From: Shimia sp.
Lineage (GTDB): Bacteria; Pseudomonadota; Alphaproteobacteria; Rhodobacterales; Rhodobacteraceae
NCBI GenBank assembly: GCA_024224295.1
Contig: JAAENN010000282.1
Coordinates: forward strand, 1-64,000
Direction: 5' to 3'
DNA: 64,000 nucleotides
Positions 2,649 through 40,840 of this stretch are shown here, in pieces. The position numbers and the translations under genes were made by a program. Position 1 is the first letter of the stretch; the number at the start of each line of letters is the position of its first letter. The notes under the pieces are model-generated. The model made no database searches. It was not told the origin of the DNA and saw only the letters and a list, made by a program, of their open reading frames with translations.

Positions 2649-5021
2649 TTAGAAGTCCTGCCAAAGCTCCATATCCACTGCCGCATTTCCATTTACGGCC
2701 ATTGGGGCCGCCTGACGCGCAGGCTTTGGGGCTGGCTTTGGTGCCGCCGCTTCGGCCTTCTGCGCTGGCGCTGGTTTGGGCGCACTTGGCGCAGGAGGCG
2801 CAACCGGAGCCTCGGAAATCACCGACGCGTCGGTTTTGAAGCTCGACACCATCCCCATCAGCTCGGACGCGTCCTTGGCCAACATCTGCCCGGCTGCGGT
2901 GGACTCTTCCACCATGGCGGCATTGGCCTGCGTCACCTGATCTAGCTGCACAACACTTGCGTTGGTTTCTGCCAAGCCAGCGGATTGATCCGTCGCGCTT
3001 CGCGCAATCTCAGAGACCATTTGCGAGATGTTGTTGACGCGATCTGCTATGCTGGTCAACGCTTCCCCAGCTTTGCCCACTAGGTCCACACCGCTTTCAA
3101 CTTGCTGCGCGCTGTCGCTGATCAAAGCTTTGATCTCACTGGCTGCATCCGAGGACTTGAGGGCAAGCGCCCGCACCTCAGAGGCCACCACCGCAAAGCC
3201 GCGTCCTGCATCACCTGCCCGTGCCGCTTCCACCCCAGCGTTCAACGCCAACAGGTTAGTCTGGAAGGCAATGTCGTCAATCACTCCGATGATCTGAGAA
3301 ATATGGCGCGAACCTTCCTCAATTTCTGTCATCGCCGTCACCGCATCGCGCACAACGTCGCCGCTGATTTCAGCCTCACTGCGCGCCTCTGCAACAACCT
3401 CTTCTACGTTGCGCGTACCTTCAGCCGCTGTTTGCACGTTGTTGGTCATCTCTTTCAGAGCCGCAGCGGTCTCTTCCAGCGTCGCCGCCTGATTCTCTGT
3501 CCGTTGAGACAGATCCAAGGACGACTGGCTAATTTCCGCCGCGCCGCTCTTGATGCTGTCCGCAGATTCCACCACCTGCGACACTGTCGTGTTGAGCTGA
3601 TGCACGGTTTTGTTGAAGTCCAAGCGCAACGCGTCATGGTCGCCCGCAAACGGCTCGTCGATGGTCTGCTCAAAGTCACCCTGCGACAGCTGACCAAGAC
3701 CGGCGCTCAGCTTCTTCACAACAATTTCCTGCTCCTGCGCAGCAATGGCACGCTCTGCCTCGGCATCTTTGGCTTTCTTCAGATCGCCACGCATCGCGAC
3801 AAGGGTCTTACCAAGTTCACCAATCTCGTCACCCCGCTCTGCGGCGGCCACGTCGGTGTTAAAATCCCCACCAGAGATTTGCTCCATGTCGCCACAGATG
3901 TCATTCAACGGACGGGTGATTGTTCGGGCGAACATCCAGCCCAGAACCGAGAGCACTGCTGCCAGAAGTACACTCACGGCGATCAGAACACGCGCCTGCG
4001 CCCAGACCGGCCCCATAGTCTCACTGACGTCCTGCTCGGCAATAATCGCCCAGTTGGCGTAATCCAACTCAAGCGGCTTGGCGTACGAAACCACCTGCTG
4101 GCCACGCAAACCCGTATCAACCTCGTAAACGCTTTGACCCGCAAGCGCCTCTTCAATGTGGTGCGTCATTTGCAGCGGGTCGAGCACCTGAAAGTCACCC
4201 TCAAAGCGGGACGACGTGCGCGCTAGCCCATCCTCACCCACGATAAAAATCTGCGTGGTTTCGCCAAGCCCTAAGCTGCTGTTGGTAATTTCCCCCATCA
4301 TATTGACCGGGATCTGCAGCGCCACGACACCTAGCAAAGCATTATCGGCACCGCGCACGGGCGACGCGATAAAGGCCGCCGCCGCGCCGAAGCTGGGCGC
4401 GTAGGGGGTAATGTCATCAAAATGCATGCTCCCATCCGCGCCTTTCAGCGCGGAATTAAATACGCGGGCCAAACCGCTATCCTTGTAAGCACCGGAAACG
4501 AGATTGGTGGCATAATCCACTTCCTTAAACACGGAGAAGACGATGTCACCCGCCGGGTTGATCAAAAAGGCATCATAGTACCCTTTGGTTTCAATCAGTG
4601 TACGCAGACCGGGATGATAAAGCGCGTGATCTGTGTGGTAGGCCGCATCTCCCTGCGCCCGATCCAACAGATGTTTAGAGCCAACCGCATTTGGATTATC
4701 GTCGATGTAAGCTGTCGTCAGAGTGGATTGTGCGCCTTCCCCCAAGGCGGCCCAAGATTCACCAAAGTCGACCAAAGCATTGGTCGTGGCCGAAGACACC
4801 GCCAACGATTCCAGATCCGCTTCAACCCCCTCCAGCATTTGCAGCACTGCATATCGTCGGTCCGAAATCATAGAAAACATCTGGTTCTCGACAGCCGAAA
4901 ACGCATATTTCTGGAGGGCAAAAAGGCTGACTGAAATCAGTCCGGCCGCAAGCAGAATACTAAAACCGACAATGAAAATCGGCAACTTCCTGGAAAGCGG
5001 GATTGAAGTGAGGCGTGGCAT
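2649..5021 (-). CDS. Methyl-accepting chemotaxis protein
   Basis: A 790-aa chemoreceptor. The first transmembrane helix is near 13-36, and a large periplasmic sensor (about 37-342, Cache-like) is closed by a second helix near 344-365. HAMP follows near 366-420 with a second HAMP-like stretch near 430-480. The signalling hairpin is recognisable at 577-619 ([40 protein letters not shown]). The tail is Pro/Ala-rich (about 737-773) and ends in LWQDF, which fits the x-[FHWY]-x2-[FHWY] tether bound by CheR/CheB in some receptors. The ligand is unknown. No other chemotaxis genes are near. The gene sits between rplA and rplJ, interrupting the usual ribosomal order. A GGGCTT-AATA-AAGCCC hairpin lies in its leader (5070-5085). 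Confidence 0.93.
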
Positions 5022-5270
5022 TGGGGGGTCCTATTGCTTATCCTTAGGTCACCTCACGACTGCCCCATAGGGCTTAATAAAGCCCAAAGGGTTGCGCCTA
5101 AGCATCCGTTTTTGTTCAAAAATACACCCCTAAGGAGAGCCGAAGCCCTCAGCAATCACGCCTAAATTTTTCAAGGAAGCAAATTAATTCACGCGGCTCG
5201 GACGGCGGCGGGAAAACGCGCCGATTATTAATTGAGCAGTTTGTGAACGCGAATCGTAAACTTTTGAACT

Positions 5271-5295
5271 AAAAAAGGCGCCCCAACGGGACGCC
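5271..5295 (-). terminator. Intrinsic terminator after rplA
   Basis: On the minus strand GGCGTCCC-GTT-GGGGCGCC forms an 8-bp stem with one G-U pair, followed directly by TTTTTT. It lies 27 nt past the rplA stop and ends the rplK-rplA transcript, separating it from the chemoreceptor gene. Confidence 0.85.
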
Positions 5296-5321
5296 TTCAA
5301 ATCTTTGCAGATCGTAGGATC

Positions 5322-6020
5322 TTACTGTGCGGATGCGTTGTCTACGCTGATGGTCACACCTGGGCCCATTGTGGAGCTCAGAGCGATCTTTTTCACGTAG
5401 GCACCTTTGGCACCAGCAGGGCGGGCCTTCAGAACTGCATCCATAAAGGCGCGTACGTTCTCAACCAGCTTGCCTTCGTCGAAGGAGGCTTTGCCCACAC
5501 CGGCGTGAACCACACCAGCTTTTTCGACTTTAAACTGCACTTCGCCACCCTTGGCTGCTTCTACGGCTGCTTTCACATCCATAGTCACAGTACCAACTTT
5601 CGGGTTTGGCATCAGGTTGCGTGGACCAAGCACTTTACCGAGACGGCCAACAACCGGCATCATGTCAGGTGTCGCGATGCAGCGATCAAAGTCGATGGTG
5701 CCGCCCTGAACGGTTTCCATCAGATCTTCTGCGCCAACGATGTCTGCACCAGCTGCCTGAGCTTCTTCAGCTTTTGGACCACGGGCAAATACAGCAACGC
5801 GTACGTTTTTACCGGTGCCGTTTGGCAAACCAACAACGCCGCGCACCATTTGGTCCGCGTGACGTGGGTCAACGCCCAGAACAACAGCGATCTCGACAGT
5901 TTCGTCAAACTTCGCGCCAGCGTTGCCCTTTACCAGTGCAACAGCTTCTTCAACGGTCAGGTTGGATTTGCCAGCGAACGCTTCGCGCGCTGCGGCAGTA
6001 CGTTTACCAAGCTTAGCCAT
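5322..6020 (-). CDS. rplA: 50S ribosomal protein L1
   Basis: A 232-aa protein of normal L1 length. Recognisable parts include [15 protein letters not shown] at the start and [18 protein letters not shown] near 64-81. L1 forms the mobile stalk at the E site and in many bacteria represses its own operon by binding the rplK leader. Its ATG shares one base with the rplK stop (TAATG), so the two are translationally coupled. A strong terminator follows. Normally rplJ comes next; here it lies about 5.2 kb away. Confidence 0.98.
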
Positions 6021-6445
6021 TACTTCACCTCGATGCCCATGGAGCGCGCGGAACCAAGGATAATCTGCATAGCAGCCTCGATATCGTTTGCGTTCAGGTC
6101 TTTCATTTTTGCTTCGGCGATTTCTTTCACCTGAGCGGCGGTGACGGAGCCCACAACTTCACGACCAGGCAGGTTTGCACCGGACTTCAGTTTGGCAGCC
6201 TTCTTCAGGTAGTAAGACGCAGGTGGCGTCTTGATGTCCATGGTGAAGGACTTGTCCTGATAGTAGGTGATCACGGTTGGGCAAGGCGCGCCTGGCTCCA
6301 TGTCCTGTGTCTTCGCGTTGAACGCTTTACAGAATTCCATGATGTTGATGCCGCGCTGACCCAGCGCCGGACCGACGGGTGGGGATGGGTTGGCTTGACC
6401 TGCAGGAACCTGCAGCTTCATTGTACCAGCTAGCTTCTTAGCCAT
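6020..6445 (-). CDS. rplK: 50S ribosomal protein L11
   Basis: A 141-aa protein with the full L11 layout. The proline-rich N-terminal domain ([20 protein letters not shown]) binds thiostrepton-type drugs and the stringent factor region in other bacteria. The C-terminal RNA-binding part contains [14 protein letters not shown]. It is the first gene of a two-gene rplK-rplA unit. The 158 nt upstream, before the GNAT gene, hold no gene and probably carry the promoter and leader. Confidence 0.98.
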
Positions 6446-6603
6446 TTGGTGTTCCTTTCAACGTGAGCGAAACGCGTTCCGCCCGGTGTGTGTTGCGTGG
6501 TCCGATCGGGCATCGCGATGCCAAAACCTCCCACGAGAGAATCTCGCCCGAAGACGATAGAGGGCCGTTTAGGCTTGTTTTGCTTGGTTGGCAAGGGGCG
6601 GCG

Positions 6604-30098: not shown

Positions 30099-31304
30099 TT
30101 GAAACAAACGTGGCGTTGGTTTGGGCCAGCCGATCCCATAGACATCTATGATCTGCCTCAGGTGGGGGTCGAAGGCGTCGTTACCTCTCTGCATCATATA
30201 CGACCCGGCGTTTCCTGGTCCAAAAGTGAAATTCGGCAGCGTCAGGCCGAAATTGCCAAACCAACACCTCACCCCACTGGGCTAAACTGGGATGTGGTAG
30301 AAAGCTTGCCTGTCTCCGAAGTTATTAAAACCAAAGGCACCGGCTACGCCGCGCATATCGCCGCCTACAAAGAAAGCCTGCACAACCTCGCGGGCTGCGG
30401 CATCCAGACCGTCTGCTATAATTTCATGCCGGTGCTAGACTGGACCCGTACCAATCTCGCCGCCCGCATGTCCCACGGCGGCACCACTATGGCCTTTGAC
30501 GTGGTGGACTTTGCCCTGTTTGACCTCTTCCTTCTGGCTCGCCCCGCCGCCGAAGACGATTACGACTCCACCACCAAACAAGCGGCCAGTGCACGCTTCA
30601 ACGCCTTGGACGCCGCCGCACAAGCCAACTTGGTGAACACGATTGTTGCCGGCCTACCCGGTACCGCTGAAAGCTGGACCCTATCGGATATTATCAAGCT
30701 GCTTGCGCTTTATAAAGACATTGACGCCTCGCAACTGCGCGCCAATCTGATCGACTTTCTGTCCGAAGTCGTGCCGGTAGCCGAAGAACATGGCATCCGC
30801 CTCTGCTGCCATCCCGACGACCCGCCCTTCGCTCTGCTGGGCCTACCGCGCGTCATGTCCTCGACATCAGACTACGAAACCATCTTCTCCGCCATCGACA
30901 GCCCCGCCAACGGCGCCACGCTCTGTACGGGCTCCCTTGGTGTAAATCCCGCTTTTGACACCGAAGATTTCATCACCCGCCACGGCCCGCGCATCCATTT
31001 TGCCCATCTGCGCAACACACTGCGCTTGGGCCCATCAGATGGGGACAAACTCAGCTTTCACGAGGCCATGCACCTCGAAGGAAACACCGATATGGTGGTT
31101 GCCATTCGCGCCCTGCTCAAGGAAGAAGCACGCCGCAAGGCCGAAGGCCGTGCCGATTGGGAAATCCCAATGCGCCCCGATCACGGGCAACACATCCTGC
31201 ACGATCTGCACGGCGATACGTTACCCGGCTATCCGCTCATTGGCCGTACCAAAGGGCTGGCCGAATTGCGCGGCGTGATGACCGCGCTCAGCGCCGATCT
31301 ATAA
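30099..31304 (+). CDS. uxuA: Mannonate dehydratase
   Basis: A 401-aa UxuA. It dehydrates D-mannonate to 2-keto-3-deoxygluconate. The protein begins KQTWRWFGPADPIDIYDLPQ, and the conserved VEGVVTSLHHIRPGVSW and YNFMPVLDWTRTNL follow. The start must be TTG at 30099: it gives the family N-terminus and lies 7 nt after a perfect GGAGGAG (30085-30091). An upstream in-frame ATG has no such support. The TIM-barrel ligands are expected in CCHPDDPP and LRPDHGQ-like MRPDHGQHIL. Its end overlaps the convergent mdeR gene by 6 nt. Confidence 0.95.
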   Translation: MKQTWRWFGPADPIDIYDLPQVGVEGVVTSLHHIRPGVSWSKSEIRQRQAEIAKPTPHPTGLNWDVVESLPVSEVIKTKGTGYAAHIAAYKESLHNLAGCGIQTVCYNFMPVLDWTRTNLAARMSHGGTTMAFDVVDFALFDLFLLARPAAEDDYDSTTKQAASARFNALDAAAQANLVNTIVAGLPGTAESWTLSDIIKLLALYKDIDASQLRANLIDFLSEVVPVAEEHGIRLCCHPDDPPFALLGLPRVMSSTSDYETIFSAIDSPANGATLCTGSLGVNPAFDTEDFITRHGPRIHFAHLRNTLRLGPSDGDKLSFHEAMHLEGNTDMVVAIRALLKEEARRKAEGRADWEIPMRPDHGQHILHDLHGDTLPGYPLIGRTKGLAELRGVMTALSADL

Positions 31305-31754
31305 AGCCGGAAACACACCGGTCTTTTTCACCGTGCCATAGGCAAAGGTGGTGTCGATGCTGGCAATCCCGCCAATGGGATGGATGCGCAGGCGGATGAA
31401 TTCTTCATAGGCCTCCAGATCGCTCACCACCACGCGCAGCTGATAATCCGTTGCGCCGGTCAGGACGTGACACTCCAGCACCTCCTCTATCCGCATCACC
31501 GCCCGCTCAAACCGCTGAACGTCCTCTTCATTGTGCCGCTCCAGCTTCACACGCACAAACACCGTCACCGGCAGACCATAGGCTTTGGCATCCACCTCCG
31601 CGCCATAGCCAGTGATCGCTCCAGAAGTCTCCAAGTTGCGCAATCGTCGCAAACAGGGGCTTGGGGACAGGTTCACCGCCTCCGCCAGATCCTGATTGGT
31701 CATGCGCCCATTGGCCTGCAAAGCCCGAATGATCTGACGATCCTTCTCATCCAT
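31299..31754 (-). CDS. mdeR: Lrp/AsnC-family regulator of methionine gamma-lyase
   Basis: A 151-aa Lrp/AsnC protein. The N-terminal helix-turn-helix is DLAEAVNLSPSPCLRRLRNL, and the C-terminal RAM ligand-binding domain includes VLTGATDYQLRVVVSDLEAYEEF. It is divergent from mdeA-mdeB, the same arrangement as mdeR-mdeAB described in Pseudomonas putida, where the regulator activates methionine use. An Lrp-type palindrome lies 11 nt upstream of its start. Effector and sign of control are inferred. Confidence 0.88.
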   Translation of the reverse strand: MDEKDRQIIRALQANGRMTNQDLAEAVNLSPSPCLRRLRNLETSGAITGYGAEVDAKAYGLPVTVFVRVKLERHNEEDVQRFERAVMRIEEVLECHVLTGATDYQLRVVVSDLEAYEEFIRLRIHPIGGIASIDTTFAYGTVKKTGVFPAL

Positions 31755-31765
31755 TTCGCGACTCC

Positions 31766-31782
31766 TTAGCAGATTATGCTAA
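31766..31782. promoter_or_regulatory. Lrp-type operator between mdeR and mdeA
   Basis: TTAGCAGATTATGCTAA is a 17-bp inverted repeat (TTAGCA, 5-bp AT-rich centre, TGCTAA). It matches the published Lrp consensus YAGHAWATTWTDCTR at 14 of 15 positions. It lies just before mdeR and 89 bp before mdeA, a sensible place for the MdeR binding site. Confidence 0.7.
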
Positions 31783-31870
31783 CATCTTATCCATTTGCGC
31801 TATTTTTCGCAATCACCTGCCCATCGTTCTCTCCCAAAGTGAACCCAACAGTTTCACGCGAGGACTCCCC

Positions 31871-33085
31871 ATGACCAAACGCAATGCGCCGCAAGGCTTC
31901 GCCACCCGCGCCATCCACCATGCCTATGATCCACAAGACAACGAGGGCGCGCTGACCCCGCCGCTGCACCTGACCTCGACCTTCACCTTTGAAACGGCTC
32001 AAGCTGGTGGCGAGATGTTTGCCGGTGACCGTGTGGGTCACATTTATTCCCGCATCTCCAACCCCACTTGCGATCTGCTCGAACAACGCATCGCCACGCT
32101 TGAAGGGGCCGAAGCTGGCCTTGCTCTGGCTTCTGGCATGGGCGGTATCACCGCCACGCTCTGGACCTTGCTCTCCCCAGGCGACGAACTCATCGTAGAC
32201 AAAACGCTTTATGGCTGCACCTTTGCCTTCATGCAGCACGGTCTGGCGAAATGGGGCGTGACCATCACCCATGTCGACATGACCGACATCGAAAACCTGC
32301 GTGCCGCGATTTCTGACAAAACCCGCGTGGTCTACTTTGAAACCCCGGCCAACCCCAACATGCGCCTCGTGGACATCGCCGCCGCGTCTGAAATCGCACA
32401 CAGCATGGACGCCACCGTTGTGGTCGACAACACCTACGCCACGCCGTACCTGACTCGCCCTATCGAAATGGGCGCGGACATAGTTCTGCACTCCGCCACC
32501 AAATACCTCGGCGGCCACGGCGATGTGGTGGCCGGTTTGGTCGTCGGCACCGCCGAGCAGATCGCCGACATCCGACTGGTCGGTATGAAAGACATGACCG
32601 GCGCGGTCATGGCGCCGTTTAACGCCATGCTGATCCTGCGCGGTCTCAAAACCCTGGCTCTACGTCTGGACCGGCACGTGCAATCCGCGATCACCGTTGC
32701 GGAATGGCTCGAAAGCCACCCGGCCATCGCTTCCGTCTCTTTCCCAGGCTTGAAAAGCTTCCCGCAGAATGACCTGGCAGAGCGTCAAATGGACAAACCC
32801 GGCGCGATGATTGCCTTTGAACTGGTCGAGGGCCACGACGCAGGCATCGCGCTGATGAACAATCTCAACCTCATCCAACGCGCCGTGTCTCTGGGCGACG
32901 CCGAGAGCCTGATCCAACATCCGGCCTCCATGACCCATTCCACCTACACGCCGGAAGAGCGCGCCGCGCATAACATCACCGAAGGCCTCGTGCGTCTGTC
33001 CGTCGGCCTCGAAGAAGTTGAAGACATCCTCGCCGACCTCGCCCAAGCGCTCGACGCCCTGCCCACCCGCATCGCGGCGGAATAA
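31871..33085 (+). CDS. mdeA: L-methionine gamma-lyase
   Basis: A 404-aa PLP enzyme of the Cys/Met metabolism family. It splits L-methionine into methanethiol, ammonia and 2-oxobutyrate. The PLP lysine is in LHSATKYLGGHGDV, and the cofactor Tyr/Arg in IYSRISNPT. YGCTFAF contains the Cys that in the P. putida enzyme (Cys116) sets methionine specificity, and VGMKDMTGA carries the matching Lys-Asp pair, separating it from cystathionine lyases. It is followed at 68 nt by mdeB and controlled by the divergent Lrp-type gene. In marine bacteria it is a source of volatile methanethiol. Confidence 0.93.
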   Translation: MTKRNAPQGFATRAIHHAYDPQDNEGALTPPLHLTSTFTFETAQAGGEMFAGDRVGHIYSRISNPTCDLLEQRIATLEGAEAGLALASGMGGITATLWTLLSPGDELIVDKTLYGCTFAFMQHGLAKWGVTITHVDMTDIENLRAAISDKTRVVYFETPANPNMRLVDIAAASEIAHSMDATVVVDNTYATPYLTRPIEMGADIVLHSATKYLGGHGDVVAGLVVGTAEQIADIRLVGMKDMTGAVMAPFNAMLILRGLKTLALRLDRHVQSAITVAEWLESHPAIASVSFPGLKSFPQNDLAERQMDKPGAMIAFELVEGHDAGIALMNNLNLIQRAVSLGDAESLIQHPASMTHSTYTPEERAAHNITEGLVRLSVGLEEVEDILADLAQALDALPTRIAAE

Positions 33086-33153
33086 GTCCCTTTGCCTTGG
33101 CGTGCTACACTTGCGCCAAGGCCACCTCACCGATTGCCCACCGGAGCCAGACC

Positions 33154-35532
33154 ATGACCGACACCCAGCACCTGAAGACCATCGAACAACGCCTGCTGTG
33201 GCTGTCTCATTGGATAATCCACAACGCCAATCACATCCGCGCCAAAGAAGACGGCATCAAGATCGGCGGCCACCAGGCCTCCTCGGCCTCCATGGTCTCG
33301 ATCATGACCGCACTCTATTTTGCCACGCTAAAGCCTGAAGACCGCGTTGCCGTGAAACCCCACGCCTCGCCGATTTTCCACGCCATGCAATATCTGATGG
33401 GCAATCAGACGCGTGAGAAAATGGAAAACTTCCGCGGCTTTGGCGGTGTGCAAAGCTACCCCAGCCGCACCAAAGACATTGATGATGTGGATTTCTCCAC
33501 CGGCTCCGTGGGCCTTGGCGTCGCGATCACCTCCTTTGCCTCTCTGATCCAAGACTACATCACCGCCAAAGACTGGGGCGCGGACGCGCCGCAAGGCCGC
33601 ATGGTCGCGCTGGTGGGCGACGCGGAACTCGACGAAGGCAACGTCTATGAGGCGCTGCAAGAGGGCTGGAAAAACGACCTGCGCAACACTTGGTGGATCA
33701 TCGACTACAACCGCCAATCCTTGGACGGCATTGTGCGCGAGGGTCTGTTTGAGCGCGTCGAGAAAATCTTTGACGCCTTTGGCTGGGACGTGGTCCGCGT
33801 GAAATACGGCGCGCTGCAACGCGCGGCTTTTGCTGAACCCGGAGGCGACAAGCTGCGCGACTGGATCGACAGCTGTCCCAACCAAGACTACTCCGCGCTC
33901 ACGTTCATGGGCGGCGCGGTTTGGCGCAAACACCTGATGGATGACCTCGGCGATCAGGGCGACGTTACCGCGCTCTTGGATCGGCGCAGCGACATTGAGT
34001 TGGCCCAACTGATGGAAACCCTCGGCGGCAACTGCGTGGAAACCATGGCCGAGACCTTTGCCGCCATCGACCACGACCGCCCCACTTGTTTCCTTGCCTA
34101 CACCATCAAAGGCTGGGGCACGCCCATCGCAGGCCACAAGGACAACCACGGCGGTCTGATGAACAAGACGCAAATGACCGCGTGGCAAAACCACATGGGG
34201 GTTGCGGAAGGTCAGGAATGGGAGCCCATGGCCACCGTTGCAGACCCAGCTGCGCTACGTGATTTCCTCTCCGAAGTACCCTTCTTTGCCCAAGGGCCAC
34301 GCCGGTTTACCGACGCCAAACTGCCTGTACCGGCCATCTCGCTCGACACCGACCGCGAGACCTCCACCCAAATGGCCTTTGGCAAGGTCCTCGACGATCT
34401 CTCTAAAGGCGATAGCGCGCTGGCGTCCCGCATCGTGACCACCTCGCCCGACGTAACCGGCACCACCAACCTCGGCCCGTGGGTCAACCGCCGCAAGCTC
34501 TTTGCCCGCGAAGCCCAAGCCGATGCCTTCATCGAGCATCGCATTCCCTCAACCGCCAAATGGGAGTTCACCCCCGAAGGTCAACACATTGAGCTGGGCA
34601 TTGCCGAGATGAACCTGATGCTGCTCTTGGGCGCGGCGGGCCTCTCCCATTCTATCTTTGGCAAACGCCTGATCCCTATCGGCACCGTCTATGACCCGTT
34701 TGTGTCCCGTGGCCTCGATGCGCTCAATTACGCCTGCTACCAAGACGCCCGGTTCCTGCTGGTCGGCACGCCCTCCGGCGTAACGCTGGCGCCCGAAGGT
34801 GGCGCACACCAATCCATCGCCTCGCCTTTGATCGGCATGTCCCAAGACGGCCTTGCGTCCTTCGAACCCGCCTTTGCCGATGAATTGGCGGTGATCATGG
34901 AATGGGCGTTTGACTACCTGCAACGCGACGGCGAAGGCGACCCGGACGAACGCACCTGGCTGCGCGATGAAACCGGCGGCTCCGTCTACCTGCGCCTGAC
35001 CACCAACCCCATCGAGCAACCCGGCAAACGCAACGACGACGCCTTCGAACAGGGTGCGATTGATGGCGCCTACTGGCTGCGCAAGCCTGGTCCTAACTGC
35101 GAAGTGGTGATTGCCTATCAGGGCTCCGTTGCGCCTGAGGCGATCAAAGCCGCTGGTCAAATTGCCAATGATCGCCGCGACATTGGCGTGCTTGCTGTAA
35201 CCTCTGCCGACCGCCTCAACGCCGGTTGGACTGCCGCCCAACGCGCCCGCGCACGGGGACAAATGTCGGCCCAAAGCCACATCGAGCGGCTTTTAGGTGA
35301 GCTGCCGCCTCACTGTCACCTGCTGACGGTGATCGATGGTCACCCCGCCTCCCTCAGCTGGCTGGGCGCCGTACAGGGCCACCAAACTCTGCCGCTTGGG
35401 GTCGAGCATTTCGGTCAAACCGGCACCATCGGCGACCTGTACCGGCACCATGGGTTGGACGCCGCCACCATCGTCTCCCGCATCAACGCGCTCACCTCAG
35501 GTCGCAATTTGCTTTCCGCAAGCGTCACTTGA
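33154..35532 (+). CDS. mdeB: 2-oxobutyrate/pyruvate dehydrogenase E1-like protein
   Basis: A 792-aa homodimeric-type E1 (AceE/transketolase-like). The thiamine diphosphate motif is GDAELDEGNVYEALQEGW, with IIDYNRQSLDG after it as in AceE. The start ATG at 33154 gives MTDTQHLKTIEQRLLWLS. P. putida MdeB, the homologue next to methionine gamma-lyase, is the E1 of a 2-oxobutyrate dehydrogenase. The role here would be to oxidise the 2-oxobutyrate from mdeA to propionyl-CoA with E2/E3 from elsewhere. It is slightly shorter than E. coli AceE (887 aa). Pyruvate remains a possible substrate. Confidence 0.88.
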   Translation: MTDTQHLKTIEQRLLWLSHWIIHNANHIRAKEDGIKIGGHQASSASMVSIMTALYFATLKPEDRVAVKPHASPIFHAMQYLMGNQTREKMENFRGFGGVQSYPSRTKDIDDVDFSTGSVGLGVAITSFASLIQDYITAKDWGADAPQGRMVALVGDAELDEGNVYEALQEGWKNDLRNTWWIIDYNRQSLDGIVREGLFERVEKIFDAFGWDVVRVKYGALQRAAFAEPGGDKLRDWIDSCPNQDYSALTFMGGAVWRKHLMDDLGDQGDVTALLDRRSDIELAQLMETLGGNCVETMAETFAAIDHDRPTCFLAYTIKGWGTPIAGHKDNHGGLMNKTQMTAWQNHMGVAEGQEWEPMATVADPAALRDFLSEVPFFAQGPRRFTDAKLPVPAISLDTDRETSTQMAFGKVLDDLSKGDSALASRIVTTSPDVTGTTNLGPWVNRRKLFAREAQADAFIEHRIPSTAKWEFTPEGQHIELGIAEMNLMLLLGAAGLSHSIFGKRLIPIGTVYDPFVSRGLDALNYACYQDARFLLVGTPSGVTLAPEGGAHQSIASPLIGMSQDGLASFEPAFADELAVIMEWAFDYLQRDGEGDPDERTWLRDETGGSVYLRLTTNPIEQPGKRNDDAFEQGAIDGAYWLRKPGPNCEVVIAYQGSVAPEAIKAAGQIANDRRDIGVLAVTSADRLNAGWTAAQRARARGQMSAQSHIERLLGELPPHCHLLTVIDGHPASLSWLGAVQGHQTLPLGVEHFGQTGTIGDLYRHHGLDAATIVSRINALTSGRNLLSASVT

Positions 35533-35682: not shown

Positions 35683-36141
35683 ATGAGTTCAAGCGTGCAT
35701 GTCATACCGGAACTTCCCGTTGTCCTAATGCACTTGACAGGGCGCGCTCACATTCGGGCCCTTCGGTCGATGATTGCAGACGCCTATGCCCTCCCCAACT
35801 ATCAGGCGGGCATGACAGAAATCTGCGATCTAAGTCAGGTTGTTGATCTCGATATCGGCTTCGATGAAATGCTGCGATTTGCGCAAGAGTCCAAGGCCGT
35901 CCATGACGCCCGAGGGATCAGCCCGGATTTGTTCGTGATCGCCCCAACAGATGCAGCCCACTATATGCTCGACATGTTCGAACAGCTCAGCGGCAGCCTC
36001 GACAACAGCCTGCGCATCCACCTGGCGCGCGGCTATCCGGAAATTTTTGCGATGATGGATTGGTCGGAAACCGCCATGCGCCACCTCCCGGAATACTGCA
36101 AAGTGGAACGCCACCTCTTCCAAGAAAACAAGCCGCTGTGA
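35683..36141 (+). CDS. Array paralog 1, unknown function
   Basis: First of six tandem related genes. It encodes 152 aa, soluble, with no signal peptide. The layout shared with the others is an N-terminal V-IPEL-VV-H-G strand pattern, a middle motif ICDLSQVVDLDIGFDEML (near 47-64), then GYPEIFAMMDW and a terminal PEYCKVERHLF. It is the most divergent member at the C-terminus (LF plus five extra residues instead of a terminal LL). The start ATG at 35683 has GGAGG 8 nt upstream; a longer open frame upstream is not family-like. The early strand pattern is reminiscent of SpoIIAA/STAS-like folds, but I do not recognise a function. Confidence 0.85.
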   Translation: MSSSVHVIPELPVVLMHLTGRAHIRALRSMIADAYALPNYQAGMTEICDLSQVVDLDIGFDEMLRFAQESKAVHDARGISPDLFVIAPTDAAHYMLDMFEQLSGSLDNSLRIHLARGYPEIFAMMDWSETAMRHLPEYCKVERHLFQENKPL

Positions 36142-36248
36142 CGTCTCGTTACAAAGATTTACCCCTCGACACATGCGATTGCGTTTTGTCAAAGTGAACA
36201 GCCAGACGTCATTGCATTTGCAAAGCCCTTTAGAGCCGGAGAGAACCT

Positions 36249-36689
36249 ATGCCTGTGACCGCCCAGATCCTGCCAGAAATCTCGGTTGTTCATGTGGTCT
36301 GCTCCGGCCATGTCAAAGCCGAGGAAACGCGTAAGGCACTGCTGGAATGTTATTCTGACCCCGCCTACAGGTGGGGAATGCCCGAAGTTTCAGACATGAC
36401 ACAGGCTGTGTCTGTGGACACCGGTTTTGAAGAGACCATGGACTTCATCAAAGAGTTTCAGGTTCTCCACGCGGACAATAATTCAGTCCTCCGGTTGCTG
36501 ATCGTTGCCCCTGCGGAGCAGGTGGCGGATATGGTGAAGATGTTCAGCGGAATTGTTGCCGCCCTAGAATATCACATGACTGCGGACGTTGTTGCCGGGT
36601 ATCCCGAAGTACTTGCCTTGTTGGATTTTGCCCCGGGCGACCTCGCATATTTCCCCGCGTTCTGCCGCAACGAATCCCATCTGCTGTAA
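36249..36689 (+). CDS. Array paralog 2, unknown function
   Basis: A 146-aa protein, second in the array, 107 nt after paralog 1. It starts MPVTAQILPEISVVHVVCSG after a GGAGAG site. The middle motif is VSDMTQAVSVDTGFEETM, and the end is GYPEVLALLDFAPGDLAYF then PAFCRNESHLL. The terminal Cys, Glu, His and Leu-Leu are kept. A TGCATTTGCA palindrome-like element lies about 36 nt before the ATG, similar to the element before paralogs 5 and 6. Confidence 0.85.
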   Translation: MPVTAQILPEISVVHVVCSGHVKAEETRKALLECYSDPAYRWGMPEVSDMTQAVSVDTGFEETMDFIKEFQVLHADNNSVLRLLIVAPAEQVADMVKMFSGIVAALEYHMTADVVAGYPEVLALLDFAPGDLAYFPAFCRNESHLL

Positions 36690-36759
36690 CCAATTTGTCT
36701 GCTTCCTCTAGCCTGTATACCGCTTGACCGAGGCTCCTGTTCTAGACATCGTTAAAACC

Positions 36760-37218
36760 ATGCCCATTGAAGTCGAAATTCTAACGCCAGCCCCACTTGT
36801 CTACAGCCGCTTCACCGGCAGCGTCACCCTGGAAGAATTTACAAATTCCTCCCAATCTCTGCATGGCAACCCGGATTTCTATCCCGGCATGCACATGGTT
36901 CTGGACATGCGCGCGCTGGACGATTTTGATGTTGGTTTTGACGAAATGAAGGCCTTCACCGCCAATGTCCAGAAACGTCACAAGGAGCGGGGCGAGGCCG
37001 TTTTTATCTTCATCGTGTGCAGCACCGAACAAAGCCACTGGCTGGCCGAAATGTTCCGGTCTCTCTCGGACGTTGAAGATGGCTTGGCACAAGTCGAGAT
37101 CCTTAACGGGTTCCCCGACATCCTCGCCATTCAGGACCTGCCGCAAGAAACCCTGCAGTTTTTCCCAGAAGACTGCCGAAGCGAGGCGCACCTGCTCACC
37201 CGTTCGTCAACCCAATAA
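36760..37218 (+). CDS. Array paralog 3, unknown function
   Basis: A 152-aa protein, third in the array. The family start MPIEVEILTPAPLVYSRFTG sets the ATG at 36760; an upstream in-frame TTG at 36724 would add 12 residues and neither has a strong Shine-Dalgarno. The middle motif is VLDMRALDDFDVGFDEMKAF, then GFPDILAIQDLPQETLQFF and PEDCRSEAHLL, with six extra residues at the end. VLDMRALDD is close to the conserved strand of STAS-like proteins, which is the only hint to a fold. Confidence 0.82.
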   Translation: MPIEVEILTPAPLVYSRFTGSVTLEEFTNSSQSLHGNPDFYPGMHMVLDMRALDDFDVGFDEMKAFTANVQKRHKERGEAVFIFIVCSTEQSHWLAEMFRSLSDVEDGLAQVEILNGFPDILAIQDLPQETLQFFPEDCRSEAHLLTRSSTQ

Positions 37219-37254
37219 ATCCATTTCAGCTTGGCAGCTACGGCACCTCAAGCT

Positions 37255-37764
37255 ATGCCTGTGCATCTCAAGACACCTAAAACTGTATCCAATAGCGAGC
37301 AGGATGCTGAAAAGGAAAACAAATTGCCACTCAGCGTCAATGTGGTTCCGCAACTTGGCCTGCTGCACAACGTCTACTTTGGGCGTGTGACCATCCAAGA
37401 TTTCGAGGATCAGAAAAAACAGCGCAGCAAAACCAGCGCCTTTAAAATGCCTATGCCACGGGTGAACGACCTGTCGCAGGTGACTGAGGTGGACATCGGC
37501 TTCAACGAACTTCTGGTACATGCACAGGAAACCGGAAGAGCCCTTTCCAATATCTCAGAGCCCATTCAGCTTGTGATGGTGGGCGACAATCCGTTCACCT
37601 CTACCGCTGTGGCCATGTATGAAAACCTTTACGCCGCCTGCAACATTCCATTCGAAATGCACGTCGTGCGAGGTTACCCGGAAGTTCTGGCAACGTTGAA
37701 CCTGCCAGAAGACAGCCTTAAGTACTTCCCGGATTTTTGCCGTGAGGAAAGCCATCTGCTCTAA
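37255..37764 (+). CDS. Array paralog 4, unknown function
   Basis: A 169-aa protein, fourth in the array, 36 nt after paralog 3. It has an extra polar N-terminal segment of about 32 residues before the shared LSVNVVPQLGLLHNVYFG start. The middle motif is VNDLSQVTEVDIGFNELLV; the end is GYPEVLATLNLPEDSLKYF then PDFCREESHLL. A 26-nt stretch (37681-37706) is identical to one in paralog 5 (38252-38277), showing a fairly recent duplication of this pair. The start could also be a TTG at 37231. Confidence 0.83.
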   Translation: MPVHLKTPKTVSNSEQDAEKENKLPLSVNVVPQLGLLHNVYFGRVTIQDFEDQKKQRSKTSAFKMPMPRVNDLSQVTEVDIGFNELLVHAQETGRALSNISEPIQLVMVGDNPFTSTAVAMYENLYAACNIPFEMHVVRGYPEVLATLNLPEDSLKYFPDFCREESHLL

Positions 37765-37836
37765 AGCAAGGTCGTGACCTTTACCCCTGCGACACGCGCC
37801 TCAATAACGCGGCAGTGCAAGTGAACACACGACCAA

Positions 37837-37871
37837 GGCAAGAGGCTTGCCCTGACAAACAATGCATCGCA
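37837..37871 (+). promoter_or_regulatory. Conserved upstream element of array paralog 5
   Basis: A GGCAAG-AGG-CTTGCC hairpin (37837-37851) is followed after exactly 11 nt by TGCATCGCA (37863-37871), 32 nt before the start of paralog 5. The same hairpin type, the same 11-nt gap and the same 9-mer occur before paralog 6. Shared architecture argues for a regulatory role or a duplicated promoter. Confidence 0.55.
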
Positions 37872-37894
37872 CACTCTCTCTAAGGGGGAAAGCG

Positions 37895-38335
37895 ATGCCC
37901 GTCAGCGTCACAGTCATTCCTGAACTCAGCCTTGTGCACAATGTCTATTCCGGCGTTGTGACCATTCAGGAATTGTATGACGAGCAAACAAAACGCGACA
38001 GCCACCCCGCTTTCAAAATGGGTATGCCCGGTGTGAACAACTTATCCCAAGTCACAGATGTGGACATCGGGTTTGATGAGATGCTGGCCTACGCCAAGCA
38101 CACGATGGAGCTCTACCGCGATGTAACCGAGCCCATTCAGCTGGTTCTGGTTGGCGAAACCCAAGCCACCGCCACGGCAATTGCCATGTATGAAAACCTC
38201 TCTGCAGCTACCAATGCCCCTTTTCAAGTGCATGTTGTCACAGGATATCCAGAAGTTCTGGCAACGTTGAACCTGCCGCCGGACAGCCTGAAACACTTCC
38301 CCGATTTCTGCCAAGACGAAAGCCATCTTCTCTGA
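37895..38335 (+). CDS. Array paralog 5, unknown function
   Basis: A 146-aa protein, fifth in the array, 130 nt after paralog 4. It starts MPVSVTVIPELSLVHNVYSG at the ATG 37895, behind AAGGGGGA; 11 codons of open frame upstream overlap the TGCATCGCA element and are not used. The middle motif is VNNLSQVTDVDIGFDEMLAY and the end is GYPEVLATLNLPPDSLKHF then PDFCQDESHLL. It is closest to paralog 4 at protein and DNA level. Its stop runs into a GACGCACG tandem repeat. Confidence 0.86.
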   Translation: MPVSVTVIPELSLVHNVYSGVVTIQELYDEQTKRDSHPAFKMGMPGVNNLSQVTDVDIGFDEMLAYAKHTMELYRDVTEPIQLVLVGETQATATAIAMYENLSAATNAPFQVHVVTGYPEVLATLNLPPDSLKHFPDFCQDESHLL

Positions 38336-38356
38336 CGCACGGACGCACGGACGCAC
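38334..38356. repeat. Tandem GACGCACG repeat
   Basis: Just under three head-to-tail copies of the 8-mer GACGCACG begin inside the stop codon of array paralog 5. It is a small, slippage-prone repeat in the spacer before paralog 6, with no known role. Confidence 0.7.
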
Positions 38357-38374
38357 AAAATTCACACGTCCATC

Positions 38375-38409
38375 GGCAATGGGGTTGCCCCACTAAAAGA
38401 TGCATCGCA
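38375..38409 (+). promoter_or_regulatory. Conserved upstream element of array paralog 6
   Basis: A GGCAA-TGGGG-TTGCC hairpin (38375-38389), then 11 nt, then TGCATCGCA (38401-38409), 31 nt before the start of paralog 6. It matches the element before paralog 5 in order and spacing, while the loop and the intervening bases differ, so the parts kept are likely functional. Confidence 0.55.
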
Positions 38410-38431
38410 AAGTAATCAAAAAAGGATACCG

Positions 38432-38872
38432 ATGCCTGTCAGCCTTACGATCATTCCTGAGCTAAATCTCGTCCATATCATTTACTCTGGGCGCGTCACG
38501 CCAAAGGAACTCTTTGACGAAACCCAGGCCTGCTATCAACGGCCGGAATACCGGTCCGGCATGTCAGAGATCAGCGACTTTTTTCAGGTCACCTCTTTTG
38601 AGATCGGCTATGATGAAGTGCATGAATTCACCACACGCTCACAAAGCACACATGGCGGCGTGGACGCTGGAATAGACATTTGTCTGGTGGGCAGCACTAA
38701 AGTGTCAGAACCGGCAATCCTGATGTACGAAAGCATGATCGCAGCAAAGGAAATCCCCATTCGTCTGCATGTTGTCCCCGGCTACCCGGAGGCTTTGGCA
38801 ATGCTCAATTTGCCGGAGGACAGCCTCAAATACTTCCCTGACAGCTGCCACACAGAAAGCCACCTGCTCTAG
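38432..38872 (+). CDS. Array paralog 6, unknown function
   Basis: A 146-aa protein, last of the array. It starts MPVSLTIIPELNLVHIIYSG behind an AAGGA site. The middle motif is changed to ISDFFQVTSFEIGYDEVHEF; the end is GYPEALAMLNLPEDSLKYF then PDSCHTESHLL. It keeps all invariant C-terminal residues. It converges with gshA 24 nt away, and no terminator is obvious between them. Confidence 0.86.
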   Translation: MPVSLTIIPELNLVHIIYSGRVTPKELFDETQACYQRPEYRSGMSEISDFFQVTSFEIGYDEVHEFTTRSQSTHGGVDAGIDICLVGSTKVSEPAILMYESMIAAKEIPIRLHVVPGYPEALAMLNLPEDSLKYFPDSCHTESHLL

Positions 38873-38896: not shown

Positions 38897-40267
38897 TCAG
38901 TAGCTGTATTCGCCGTAGATTTTACTCAGATCGCCGTTCCAATCGCCGTGATAGCGCTCCAGCAACTCATCCGCTGGCACTTTCCCGCTTTCCACGCTTT
39001 CTTTCAGCGCGTTCAGGAAATGAGTCTCATTTGGCACCAGACCACCGACGCCCGGCTTGGCCCGCGCCACAAGACCTGCTTCTGAGATCGCCACGACCTC
39101 ACGCGCCAAGTCGTGCATCTTGATGCCACCCACCTGTGCTTGAAGCCCGTCTTCACTCGCCGCAACCCGCAGGGCCTCGCGCGTTTCCGCGCCCCACCCC
39201 TTAACCAGATCCCAGGCCGCATCCAGCGAAGACTGATCATACATCAGCCCCACCCAAAATGCGGGCAGAGCGCAGAGCCGCCGCCACGGACCACCGTCCG
39301 CACCGCGCATTTCCATGAATTTCTTGATCCGCGCCTCAGGGAAAGCCGTGGTCAGGTGATCCGCCCAATCGCTTAGGGTCGGCATCTCGCCCGGAAGTGC
39401 AGGCAGCTCACCCTTTAGGAAGTCGCGGAACGACATGCCCAGCGCATTAACGTAAGTGCCATCGCGGTAGACAAAATACATTGGCACATCGAGCGCATAT
39501 TGCACCCAGGCCTCAAAGCCAAAGCCATCTTCAAACACAAACGGCAACATGCCTGTGCGCGCATCATCCAGATTGCGCCAGACCAGACCCCGGGTAGATT
39601 TCACCCCATTGGGTTTGCCATCCAAAAACGGCGAATTGGCAAACAGCGCATTGGCCACCGGCTGCAACGCCAAGGCCACCCGCAGCTTTTGCACCATGTC
39701 CGGCTCACTGGAGAAATCCAGGTTCACCTGAACCGTGCACGTGCGGCGCATCATGGTTGTGCCCATGGTGCCCACTTTGCCCATATAGCTGTCCATCAGC
39801 TTGTAGCGGCCTTTGGGCATCAAAGGCATATCTTCATGACTCCAGATCGGCGCAGCCCCCAGCCCGATGAAACCCACACCAATTTTGTCCGCGATGTCCT
39901 TCACATCGGTCAGGTGTTGGTTTACCTCATCACAGGTCTGGTGGATGTTCTCCAACGGTGCACCGGACAACTCCAACTGCCCACCTGGCTCAAGGCTCAC
40001 ATTGGCACCGTCTTTTTCCAGCCCAATCAGCTTGCCGCCTTCTTCCACTGGCGCCCAACCGTGGCCATCGCGCAGCCCTTCCAGCACCGCTAAAATGGAG
40101 CGCTCACCTTCATAGGGCAGCGGCTTCACACTGTCTTTGCAGTAGCCAAACTTCTCGTGCTCGGTGCCAATGCGCCAGTCTTCTTTGGGTTTGCAGCCAT
40201 CGCTGAGATATTCAGCTAGCTGATCGTGATGTTCGATCGGCCCGCCGCCGGACTGTGGGATAGACAT
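38897..40267 (-). CDS. gshA: Glutamate-cysteine ligase (plant/alphaproteobacterial type)
   Basis: A 456-aa GshA of the group shared by alphaproteobacteria and plants. It joins glutamate and cysteine, the first and limiting step of glutathione synthesis, using ATP. Typical parts are IGTEHEKFGYC near 33, VSLEPGGQLELSGAPL near 90, TCTVQVNLDFSSEPDM and EMRGADGGPWRRLCALPAFW. The start is the ATG at 40267 (MSIPQSGGG). It precedes nothing on its strand except the paralog array, which converges on it. Confidence 0.95.
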   Translation of the reverse strand: MSIPQSGGGPIEHHDQLAEYLSDGCKPKEDWRIGTEHEKFGYCKDSVKPLPYEGERSILAVLEGLRDGHGWAPVEEGGKLIGLEKDGANVSLEPGGQLELSGAPLENIHQTCDEVNQHLTDVKDIADKIGVGFIGLGAAPIWSHEDMPLMPKGRYKLMDSYMGKVGTMGTTMMRRTCTVQVNLDFSSEPDMVQKLRVALALQPVANALFANSPFLDGKPNGVKSTRGLVWRNLDDARTGMLPFVFEDGFGFEAWVQYALDVPMYFVYRDGTYVNALGMSFRDFLKGELPALPGEMPTLSDWADHLTTAFPEARIKKFMEMRGADGGPWRRLCALPAFWVGLMYDQSSLDAAWDLVKGWGAETREALRVAASEDGLQAQVGGIKMHDLAREVVAISEAGLVARAKPGVGGLVPNETHFLNALKESVESGKVPADELLERYHGDWNGDLSKIYGEYSY

Positions 40268-40330
40268 AGGCTTGCTCCGCTCCTGCAAACTCGCTTGGGA
40301 CAGTAGTCGTGATCGTAAATTTTACCGGTG

Positions 40331-40840
40331 TCAATGCAACCGGGGGTCTGATTTAGCCCAGATCACAACCGGTTGATCCGGCGTGGCCTTCAACTTAGCC
40401 AGCATGTGTTCAGTGCGAATGCCCTCAAGCGACGCAAAGGCGTCAAACAACGCATCCGAACCTTCCGCATTCACGGGGATTTGCAACGGCGCCTGTCCGG
40501 GTTGATACAACGCCCAGACCGCAGGTTGGCTGCGGCCGTCCAGCACCACTCGGCTCAGGCTGCGAATGGCCACACTGCCGCCGTTGAGCGGCCCAAAATA
40601 AGCCACCTCGCCCTCGTCCACCTGCACCACGCCCGGACCACCTTTGCCAATCCGAAACCGTCCGCGTTGCAGGCCACTGACAATCAGCACCGCGCCCACG
40701 GCAACCAAGCCGATCCCGAGCCATTTCATAACGCCAAATCCACTGGCCCACCATAGGCCTAACAGCAGCACCACGCCGCCCACCAAGGCTTCCCGCCACT
40801 GCGCCACCGCCGCACGGGCCTCAGGTCGAATGAATGTCAT
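40331..40840 (-). CDS. Hypothetical membrane protein
   Basis: A 169-aa protein. Two adjacent transmembrane helices lie near 20-60 (ALVGGVVLLLGLWWASGFGV and WLGIGLVAVGAVLIVSGL). The C-terminal soluble part contains VDEGEVAYFGPLNGG and IRSLSRVVLDG, a beta-rich pattern, then a predicted helical end. No function recognised. Its start overlaps the GNAT gene stop by 4 nt, so they are co-translated, in a run rsmE, GNAT, this gene. Confidence 0.78.
   Translation of the reverse strand: MTFIRPEARAAVAQWREALVGGVVLLLGLWWASGFGVMKWLGIGLVAVGAVLIVSGLQRGRFRIGKGGPGVVQVDEGEVAYFGPLNGGSVAIRSLSRVVLDGRSQPAVWALYQPGQAPLQIPVNAEGSDALFDAFASLEGIRTEHMLAKLKATPDQPVVIWAKSDPRLH

Follow-up and report, generated by a model that had tools for sequence, protein, structure and literature searches.

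A tandem array of six paralogues with a predicted SpoIIAA/STAS-like fold beside gshA in Shimia: possible partner-binding regulators

Results

The stretch of DNA analysed here, hereafter called the window, comprises 64,000 nucleotides of a Shimia sp. genome (Rhodobacteraceae; assembly GCA_024224295.1, contig JAAENN010000282.1, positions 1 to 64,000). At positions 35683-38872 it contains six consecutive plus-strand open reading frames, P1 to P6, which are separated by spacers of 70-130 bases without any intervening gene. An earlier note, made from the sequence alone, had described them as an uninterrupted tandem set of related genes, which both the reading frames and a search of the own genome with P5 confirm. 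The members of the array are:

35683..36141, plus strand: P1, 152 residues; no clear orthologue in the tree
36249..36689, plus strand: P2, 146 residues; most closely related to a broken gene of the ALOHA Shimia genome (42% identity, 111 columns)
36760..37218, plus strand: P3, 152 residues; ATG start
37324..37764, plus strand: P4, 146 residues; TTG as start codon; a P5-group duplicate that is also present in genome G208
37895..38335, plus strand: P5, 146 residues; ATG start; model with SpoIIAA/STAS fold
38432..38872, plus strand: P6, 146 residues; adjoins gshA; its group is present in 6/6 arrays of 5-6 copies

In the search with P5, which retrieved itself with an E-value of 2.8e-103, the other five members gave E-values of 1.8e-58 to 2.6e-21, and the likeness among the six is therefore not due to chance; two distant relatives elsewhere in the same genome were matched as well (E 8.8e-4 and 0.039). 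P1 to P6 align end to end, as the earlier note had expected, with 13 invariant columns and identities to P5 of 33% (P1), 38% (P2), 30% (P3), 63% (P4) and 49% (P6). The lower bound of the proposed size range of 146-169 residues stands, whereas the upper one does not, since the likely starts give 146-152 residues; the TTG start of P4 and the ATG starts of P3 and P5 are conserved among relatives. Among the motifs that had been pointed out, G-Y/F-P-E/D is present throughout (G-Y-P-E in five of the six and G-F-P-D in P3), whereas the IPEL-type start is exact in P1, P5 and P6 but not in the other three. Specific to the array proteins is also a common C-terminal tail (F-P-x-x-C-x-x-E-x-H-L-L type), and within the genomes sampled the array with this tail was seen in the genus Shimia only. 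As several intact members lack the C-terminal Cys, a role of this position as fixed catalytic or metal-binding residue can be ruled out.

The AlphaFold model of P5, built from a 65-row alignment, reached a predicted local distance difference test score (pLDDT) of 94.2 and a predicted template modelling score (pTM) of 0.88, with the element order bb-a-b-a-b-a-b-a, and the model of P1 (47 rows; pLDDT 92.7, pTM 0.86) has the same order. P5 and P1, hence two of the six, are thus predicted to adopt a SpoIIAA/STAS-like fold, which bears out the hint in the earlier note. Foldseek, run against the PDB with the P5 model only, returned 720 matches at E <= 10. Four of these had E <= 0.001, and all four are SpoIIAA chains of SpoIIAA/SpoIIAB complexes (1th8, 1thn, 1tid, 1til; best E 9.6e-5, template modelling (TM) score normalised by target 0.66-0.71). 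The next matches, with higher E-values, were the anti-sigma antagonist 4hyl, the DUF3478 structures 2q3l (2.4e-3) and 2ook (2.3e-2; identity in the structural alignment 7-11%), RsbS 6jhk and, at rank 16, SiaC 7e6g (E 0.069, TM 0.41-0.46).

Proteins with the STAS fold are known above all as phosphorylation-dependent switches. The column of the phosphorylated serine, however, holds Gly in all six proteins of the window (I/V/T-Gly-Phe/Tyr versus Ser-Ser-Gly). In alignment A2 it holds Gly in 22 and Thr in one of the 23 array rows, as compared to Asp (26), Gly (4), Ser (3), Ala (3), Asn (3), Glu (2) and Thr (1) in the 42 non-array rows. This column was placed by eye, from the D/N-L-S-x-V motif set against the classic antagonist at locus L109 of the same genome; an identical pairing of columns came out of a profile comparison, though without significance. 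Aligned in this way, the array proteins appear to be devoid of the serine that STAS switch proteins phosphorylate.

Searches of Pfam and NCBIfam (E up to 10) returned no family that describes any of the six, in line with the earlier note, which had called the family unrecognised; stray NCBIfam matches to prpB (0.078), PRK09863 (0.005) and type II dehydroquinase (0.058) lay far under the cut-offs and were discarded. The PF01740 profile matched four places in the own genome, all of them outside the array. PF11964 matched none of the six array proteins and, in the own genome, only proteins encoded elsewhere, one of which (L113, 1465-2196) carries two tandem PF11964 SpoIIAA-like domains; 3/65 family members were matched (best E 3.3e-4). 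Sequence searches of the PDB gave no credible match, neither with profile A1 (best 1.9) nor with profile A2 (best calcium-binding protein 4 at 0.01, without a matched stretch), and no profile-profile comparison of the family with the STAS antagonists or the PF11964 protein of the genome was significant. A mobile or phage origin was rejected, as the six proteins matched no family in PHROGs (best 0.13) or PADLOC (none), and as P6, searched alone, had no match in plasmids and phages and no confirmed relative in viral contigs. Besides the DUF3478 structure paper, the accessible parts of the open-licence literature on SpoIIAA-like proteins, STAS proteins of Roseobacter, expansions in Shimia, the neighbours of mmsA and STAS paralogues in tandem yielded no report on these proteins, an absence that carries little weight.

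Within Shimia, the array is present in 11 of 25 genomes with one to six copies each, adding up to 41 genes of which two are broken, while any match to profile A1 was found in 23/25. Six copies are present in the window, S. sagamensis (G206) and the ALOHA genome (G212, one broken), five in N1E20 (G219), G216 and G208 (one broken), two in S. marina (G204), G210 and G203 (the latter very divergent), one in G209 and at least one in G217. The retention of six copies that the earlier note had emphasised hence holds for the window but not as a stable number across genomes. In a tree obtained with a quick method, with support values of 82-87 in the Shimodaira-Hasegawa-like approximate likelihood ratio test at the relevant forks, the array rows (42 rows for the 41 genes, P1 being counted twice) group together. 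The exception is a long-branched non-array row, L164, which is placed beside a G203 row within the array group, a type of join that the tool warns of. The orthologue groups differ in their presence between genomes, and the cluster is a birth-and-death array.

The constant neighbour of the array lies on its right side:

38897..40270, minus strand: gshA, encoding a glutamate-cysteine ligase (TIGR01436); convergent orientation relative to the array

The gshA gene was detected in 24/25 Shimia genomes, and its downstream side is readable in 23, ten of which have convergent array members and 13 of which do not; in G211 gshA is cut and bases are masked, and in G217 the array member lies at a contig end with gshA out of sight. 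In all ten array genomes with visible gshA the two are arranged tail to tail. The left flank, a methionine gamma-lyase and an AceE-like gene, is the same in 7/11 array genomes and different in S. marina, G209, G210 and G203, so that gshA with its upstream genes is the only constant neighbour. The "undescribed system" of the earlier note therefore finds no backing at the locus, as no second component was found in the array.

Further observations concern the surroundings. A minus-strand gene at 40331-40840 encodes a protein of 169 residues with a hydrophobic N-terminal part and no Pfam match, and in each array locus with visible gshA it lies upstream of that gene. Just before the array, at 31299-35532, an Lrp/AsnC regulator gene is divergent from the genes for methionine gamma-lyase and an AceE/transketolase-like 2-oxoacid dehydrogenase E1, which may form a methionine-to-propionyl-CoA operon. 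A small gene for a hydrophobic product lies between two array members in S. sagamensis (L041, 8548-8802) and, judged from a similar spacer, in G216 (L076).

Six orthologue groups were compared, four of them represented in the window by P3 to P6 (P4 with a single pair) and two absent from it. In each, the ratio of non-synonymous to synonymous substitution rates (dN/dS) was 0.03-0.16, as compared to 0.01-0.09 for gshA and 0.02-0.04 for the upstream AceE-like gene. P1 and P2, which belong to no orthologue group, lie outside this comparison. P3 to P6 are under purifying selection, and the genes of the six groups tested are therefore working genes.

Promoter-like elements were found ahead of two of the six genes of the window:

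36724..36752, plus strand: TTGACC-N17-CATCGT, with its end 7 bases from the P3 start codon ATG; the pattern is also found in orthologues
38385..38413, plus strand: TTGCCC-N17-CAAAGT, a putative element before P6; similar in orthologues

The general pattern, TTG(A/C)NN-N17/18-CA(T/A)NNT within 130 bases, precedes 20 of the 41 array genes, whereas shuffled sequences gave a mean of 0.98 and in 0/500 cases a value as high; it was built after looking at the spacers, and several of its matches are orthologous. As a scan for E. coli-type promoters was empty for this region (0 found versus 1.9 expected), the statement on promoters rests on that pattern. With its element so close to the start codon, the P3 transcript could possibly be leaderless. 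Taken together, this does not support the co-expression of the six as one set that had been envisaged. In one orthologue group, a near-palindrome ATTCCA-N-TGGAAT, possibly an operator, precedes the second array gene in four genomes (L041, L039, L040 and, imperfectly, L076).

About one in four of the Rhodobacteraceae genera sampled contain relatives: in two surveys with one genome per genus, profile A1 matched 45/198 genomes and profile A2 42/149. A draw of 299 genomes from the phylum gave 30 with matches, namely seven Rhodobacteraceae (own genome included), 21 of the distant family f28 and two others. The f28 genomes (L095, L096, L098-L108) contain one to five remote relatives each, with internal stops in some of the matches. 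The array and the wider relatives form one family: when the profile of 21 array rows was compared to that of 40 other rows, the probability over 134 columns was 99.8.

The neighbours of the wider relatives were counted with named query proteins in 60 stretches of mostly about 12 kb, five genomes contributing two. In 40/60 loci the relative is preceded, in the same orientation and at a distance below 600 bases, by an mmsA gene (TIGR01722 in the own genome); in four more mmsA lies within 1.1 kb, and in 16 it was not found in the stretch. A YbdK-like ligase gene in the same orientation follows the relative within 1 kb in 21/60 loci and is present somewhere in the locus in 29/60. In eight of the 60, all from Shimia, the relative is followed by a gene whose product resembles the 7TMR-DISM-GGDEF protein of the own genome (39-100% identity); the domain scan was made on the copy of the own genome only, and the others were assigned by likeness to it. 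Nine further Shimia stretches include seven with mmsA, among which four have the GGDEF protein, two YbdK and one neither, and in total a GGDEF-like gene lies behind the mmsA-linked paralogue in 12 Shimia genomes. As a general observation on this locus (L184, 2687-8105, and its relatives), mmsA and an acyl-CoA dehydrogenase gene on either side stay in place, while the gene behind the STAS-like gene encodes YbdK in some Shimia genomes and a 7TMR-DISM-GGDEF diguanylate cyclase-like protein in others. In L184, the mmsA-linked paralogue lies at 6105-6521 and the 7TMR-DISM-GGDEF gene at 4048-5934.

In genomes without the family, 19 mmsA loci contain no family gene behind mmsA, and three have YbdK within 1.5 kb; these are 19 of 22 mmsA matches (both G008 matches and the second G017 match were excluded), and in two of them the downstream sequence is shorter than 1.5 kb (L236, 428 bases; L237, 1372). 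Among 61 genomes of other genera, YbdK is present in 27 of the 41 with the family versus 7 of the 20 without it (Fisher p 0.03, kinship ignored), the latter being a non-random choice of the first 20 matchless genomes of the A2 survey with the exclusion of G002, which matched. In G053 and G144, mmsA and YbdK are adjacent and the family gene is elsewhere, and in the L168/L284 locus the relative is accompanied by YbdK while mmsA is absent from the stretch. In Shimia, none of the 11 genomes with YbdK has the array, whereas 11 of the 14 without YbdK do. On a gshA tree of 23 rows (without G211, in which gshA is cut, and G217, in which it is missing), YbdK and array need two changes each, and the pattern is therefore close to one event in one clade; the view that the exclusion reflects independent events was rejected. 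GshA and YbdK are distantly alike: with model PRK13515, GshA gives a match at 7.5e-11, although this falls well short of the cut-off of the model.

Discussion

The libraries searched contain no family that describes the six proteins, and their presumed phosphosite is replaced by Gly. From our point of view, the best explanation, to which we assign a probability of roughly 40%, is that they are small partner-binding regulators that act by direct contact. We favour it because SpoIIAA outranks DUF3478 in the structure search and because, in 12 Shimia genomes, the gene that follows the mmsA-linked paralogue resembles diguanylate cyclase genes. Each array protein would dock on an enzyme or signalling protein and thereby alter its activity, in the way in which diguanylate cyclases are regulated by the STAS-like proteins HsbA, BgrV and SiaC. 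The commonest place of the family is the one behind mmsA, and in one Shimia clade a second locus beside gshA would have undergone repeated tandem duplication, divergence and decay, with separate promoters for many of the copies. The outcome would be a choice of regulators for partners that are related to each other, at least partly expressed individually. Partner binding, regulation and the use of different copies under different conditions are all three things that we infer. The best lead to a partner is the 7TMR-DISM-GGDEF diguanylate cyclase encoded after the mmsA-linked paralogue in the same clade, and glutamate-cysteine-type ligases are a further one. The retention of diverged copies under purifying selection (P3 to P6) fits different partners, as the earlier note had suggested, or different uses.

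Several points weigh against such regulators. The array contains neither a diguanylate cyclase nor a kinase gene, and the diguanylate cyclase neighbours belong to the mmsA-linked paralogue, not to the array. G202, G207 and G218 carry the GGDEF gene without an array, the array genome G210 is without the GGDEF gene, and the matches in G208 include no mmsA-linked relative. As YbdK is often the neighbour in other genera, the link to the cyclase may be mere hitchhiking. Further, sequence profiles connect the family neither to STAS (PF01740) nor convincingly to PF11964, and the loss of the phosphosite is also compatible with a ligand carrier.

In this less likely reading, the array proteins would bind a nonpolar small molecule as its soluble carriers or sensors, in the style of DUF3478/PF11964 and CRAL-TRIO proteins, with different ligands for the six copies. 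The two DUF3478 structures among the Foldseek matches of P5, the PF11964 matches in a few family members and the missing phosphosite speak for it. In addition, the accessible part of the structure report (PMC2954212) places a hydrophobic cavity of 2q3l between helices 2 and 3, and DUF3478 proteins may accordingly be carriers of nonpolar ligands. However, the array proteins themselves have no PF11964 match, and SpoIIAA outscores the DUF3478 structures. That we are dealing with ordinary anti-sigma-factor antagonists of the RsbV/SpoIIAA type in a partner switch, as fold and Foldseek ranking might suggest, is very unlikely: the Gly at the phosphosite in 6/6 proteins largely refutes it, PF01740 does not match the array, and no HATPase kinase is encoded in it, whereas a classic antagonist with a kinase-like neighbour, as judged from sequence likeness, is found elsewhere in the genome (L109, 1480-1809 and 1842-2276). 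It is also conceivable, if unlikely, that the array consists of largely redundant copies, for example for the dosage of one unremarkable protein, and that the neighbours are meaningless. A copy number between zero and six, two broken copies and the absence from 13/23 genomes with a readable gshA side would agree with this, but the paralogues have diverged (30-63% identity to P5) and purifying selection acts separately on each group tested.

The array proteins could finally modulate glutamate-cysteine-type ligases, i.e. GshA and YbdK, which we regard as quite unlikely; we know of no bacterial regulatory partner of these enzymes. In its favour, array and gshA are convergent in 10/10 genomes in which both are visible even though the other flank changes, YbdK follows or accompanies many of the relatives, in the L168/L284 locus also without mmsA, the two ligases are distantly alike, and in Shimia the array is confined to genomes without YbdK, while in other genera YbdK is more frequent in genomes with the family. 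However, YbdK also lies near mmsA without a family gene (3/19 loci, and G053 and G144), so that mmsA, YbdK and the family gene may just be parts of one old locus, and the distribution in Shimia comes close to one event. Moreover, gshA and array are convergent and hence not co-transcribed, and the array is absent from 13 of the 23 Shimia genomes in which the gshA side is readable. The most elaborate version of this idea, which we consider a long shot, is that the array represents diversified, non-phosphorylatable STAS-fold modulators of such ligases, the family having started with YbdK behind mmsA and, after the loss of YbdK in one Shimia clade, having gained and multiplied in a second place beside gshA. 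If true, it would provide a bacterial counterpart of the ligase modifier subunit.

Returning to regulators that act by contact, several known systems offer points of comparison. With SpoIIAA, RsbV and RsbS (PF01740) the array proteins share the fold and, by eye though without a significant profile pairing, a D/N-L-S-x-V motif before helix 2 that resembles the STAS antagonist of the same genome. They differ in the phosphosite, in their length (146-152 versus 109 residues for the L109 antagonist) and in the lack of a profile match, and, unlike the L109 antagonist, no cognate HATPase kinase or phosphatase gene was found among the genes around the array. The single-domain SpoIIAA fold is also shared with DUF3478, at low identity and with weak Pfam matches in three relatives but none in the array. 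Among the STAS-like cyclase modulators SiaC (DUF1987), HsbA and BgrV, SiaC may be related in fold, to judge from its match at rank 16 in Foldseek, and the mmsA-linked paralogue precedes a diguanylate cyclase-like gene; the array, in contrast, has neither an adjacent cyclase gene nor the phosphosite. As far as the accessible part of PMC8457831 describes them, HsbA, BgrV and SiaC are STAS-like regulators of diguanylate cyclases, SiaC acting by direct binding, and are themselves controlled by phosphorylation. Closest is the mmsA-linked STAS-like family of Rhodobacteraceae (alignment A2), which is homologous to the array over residues 1-135; the array differs from it by the additional C-terminal tail, by Gly instead of mostly Asp at the phosphosite column and by its locus.

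Overall, the family is nameless in the libraries searched, while both the fold and the presumed mode of action belong to a kind that is already known. A STAS-fold family that seems to be devoid of the phosphosite, that mostly resides at one metabolic locus and that forms a fast-changing array in Shimia would represent a test case for the diversification of regulators, and two concrete pairings, with a diguanylate cyclase and with a glutamate-cysteine-type ligase, are suggested by its neighbourhoods.

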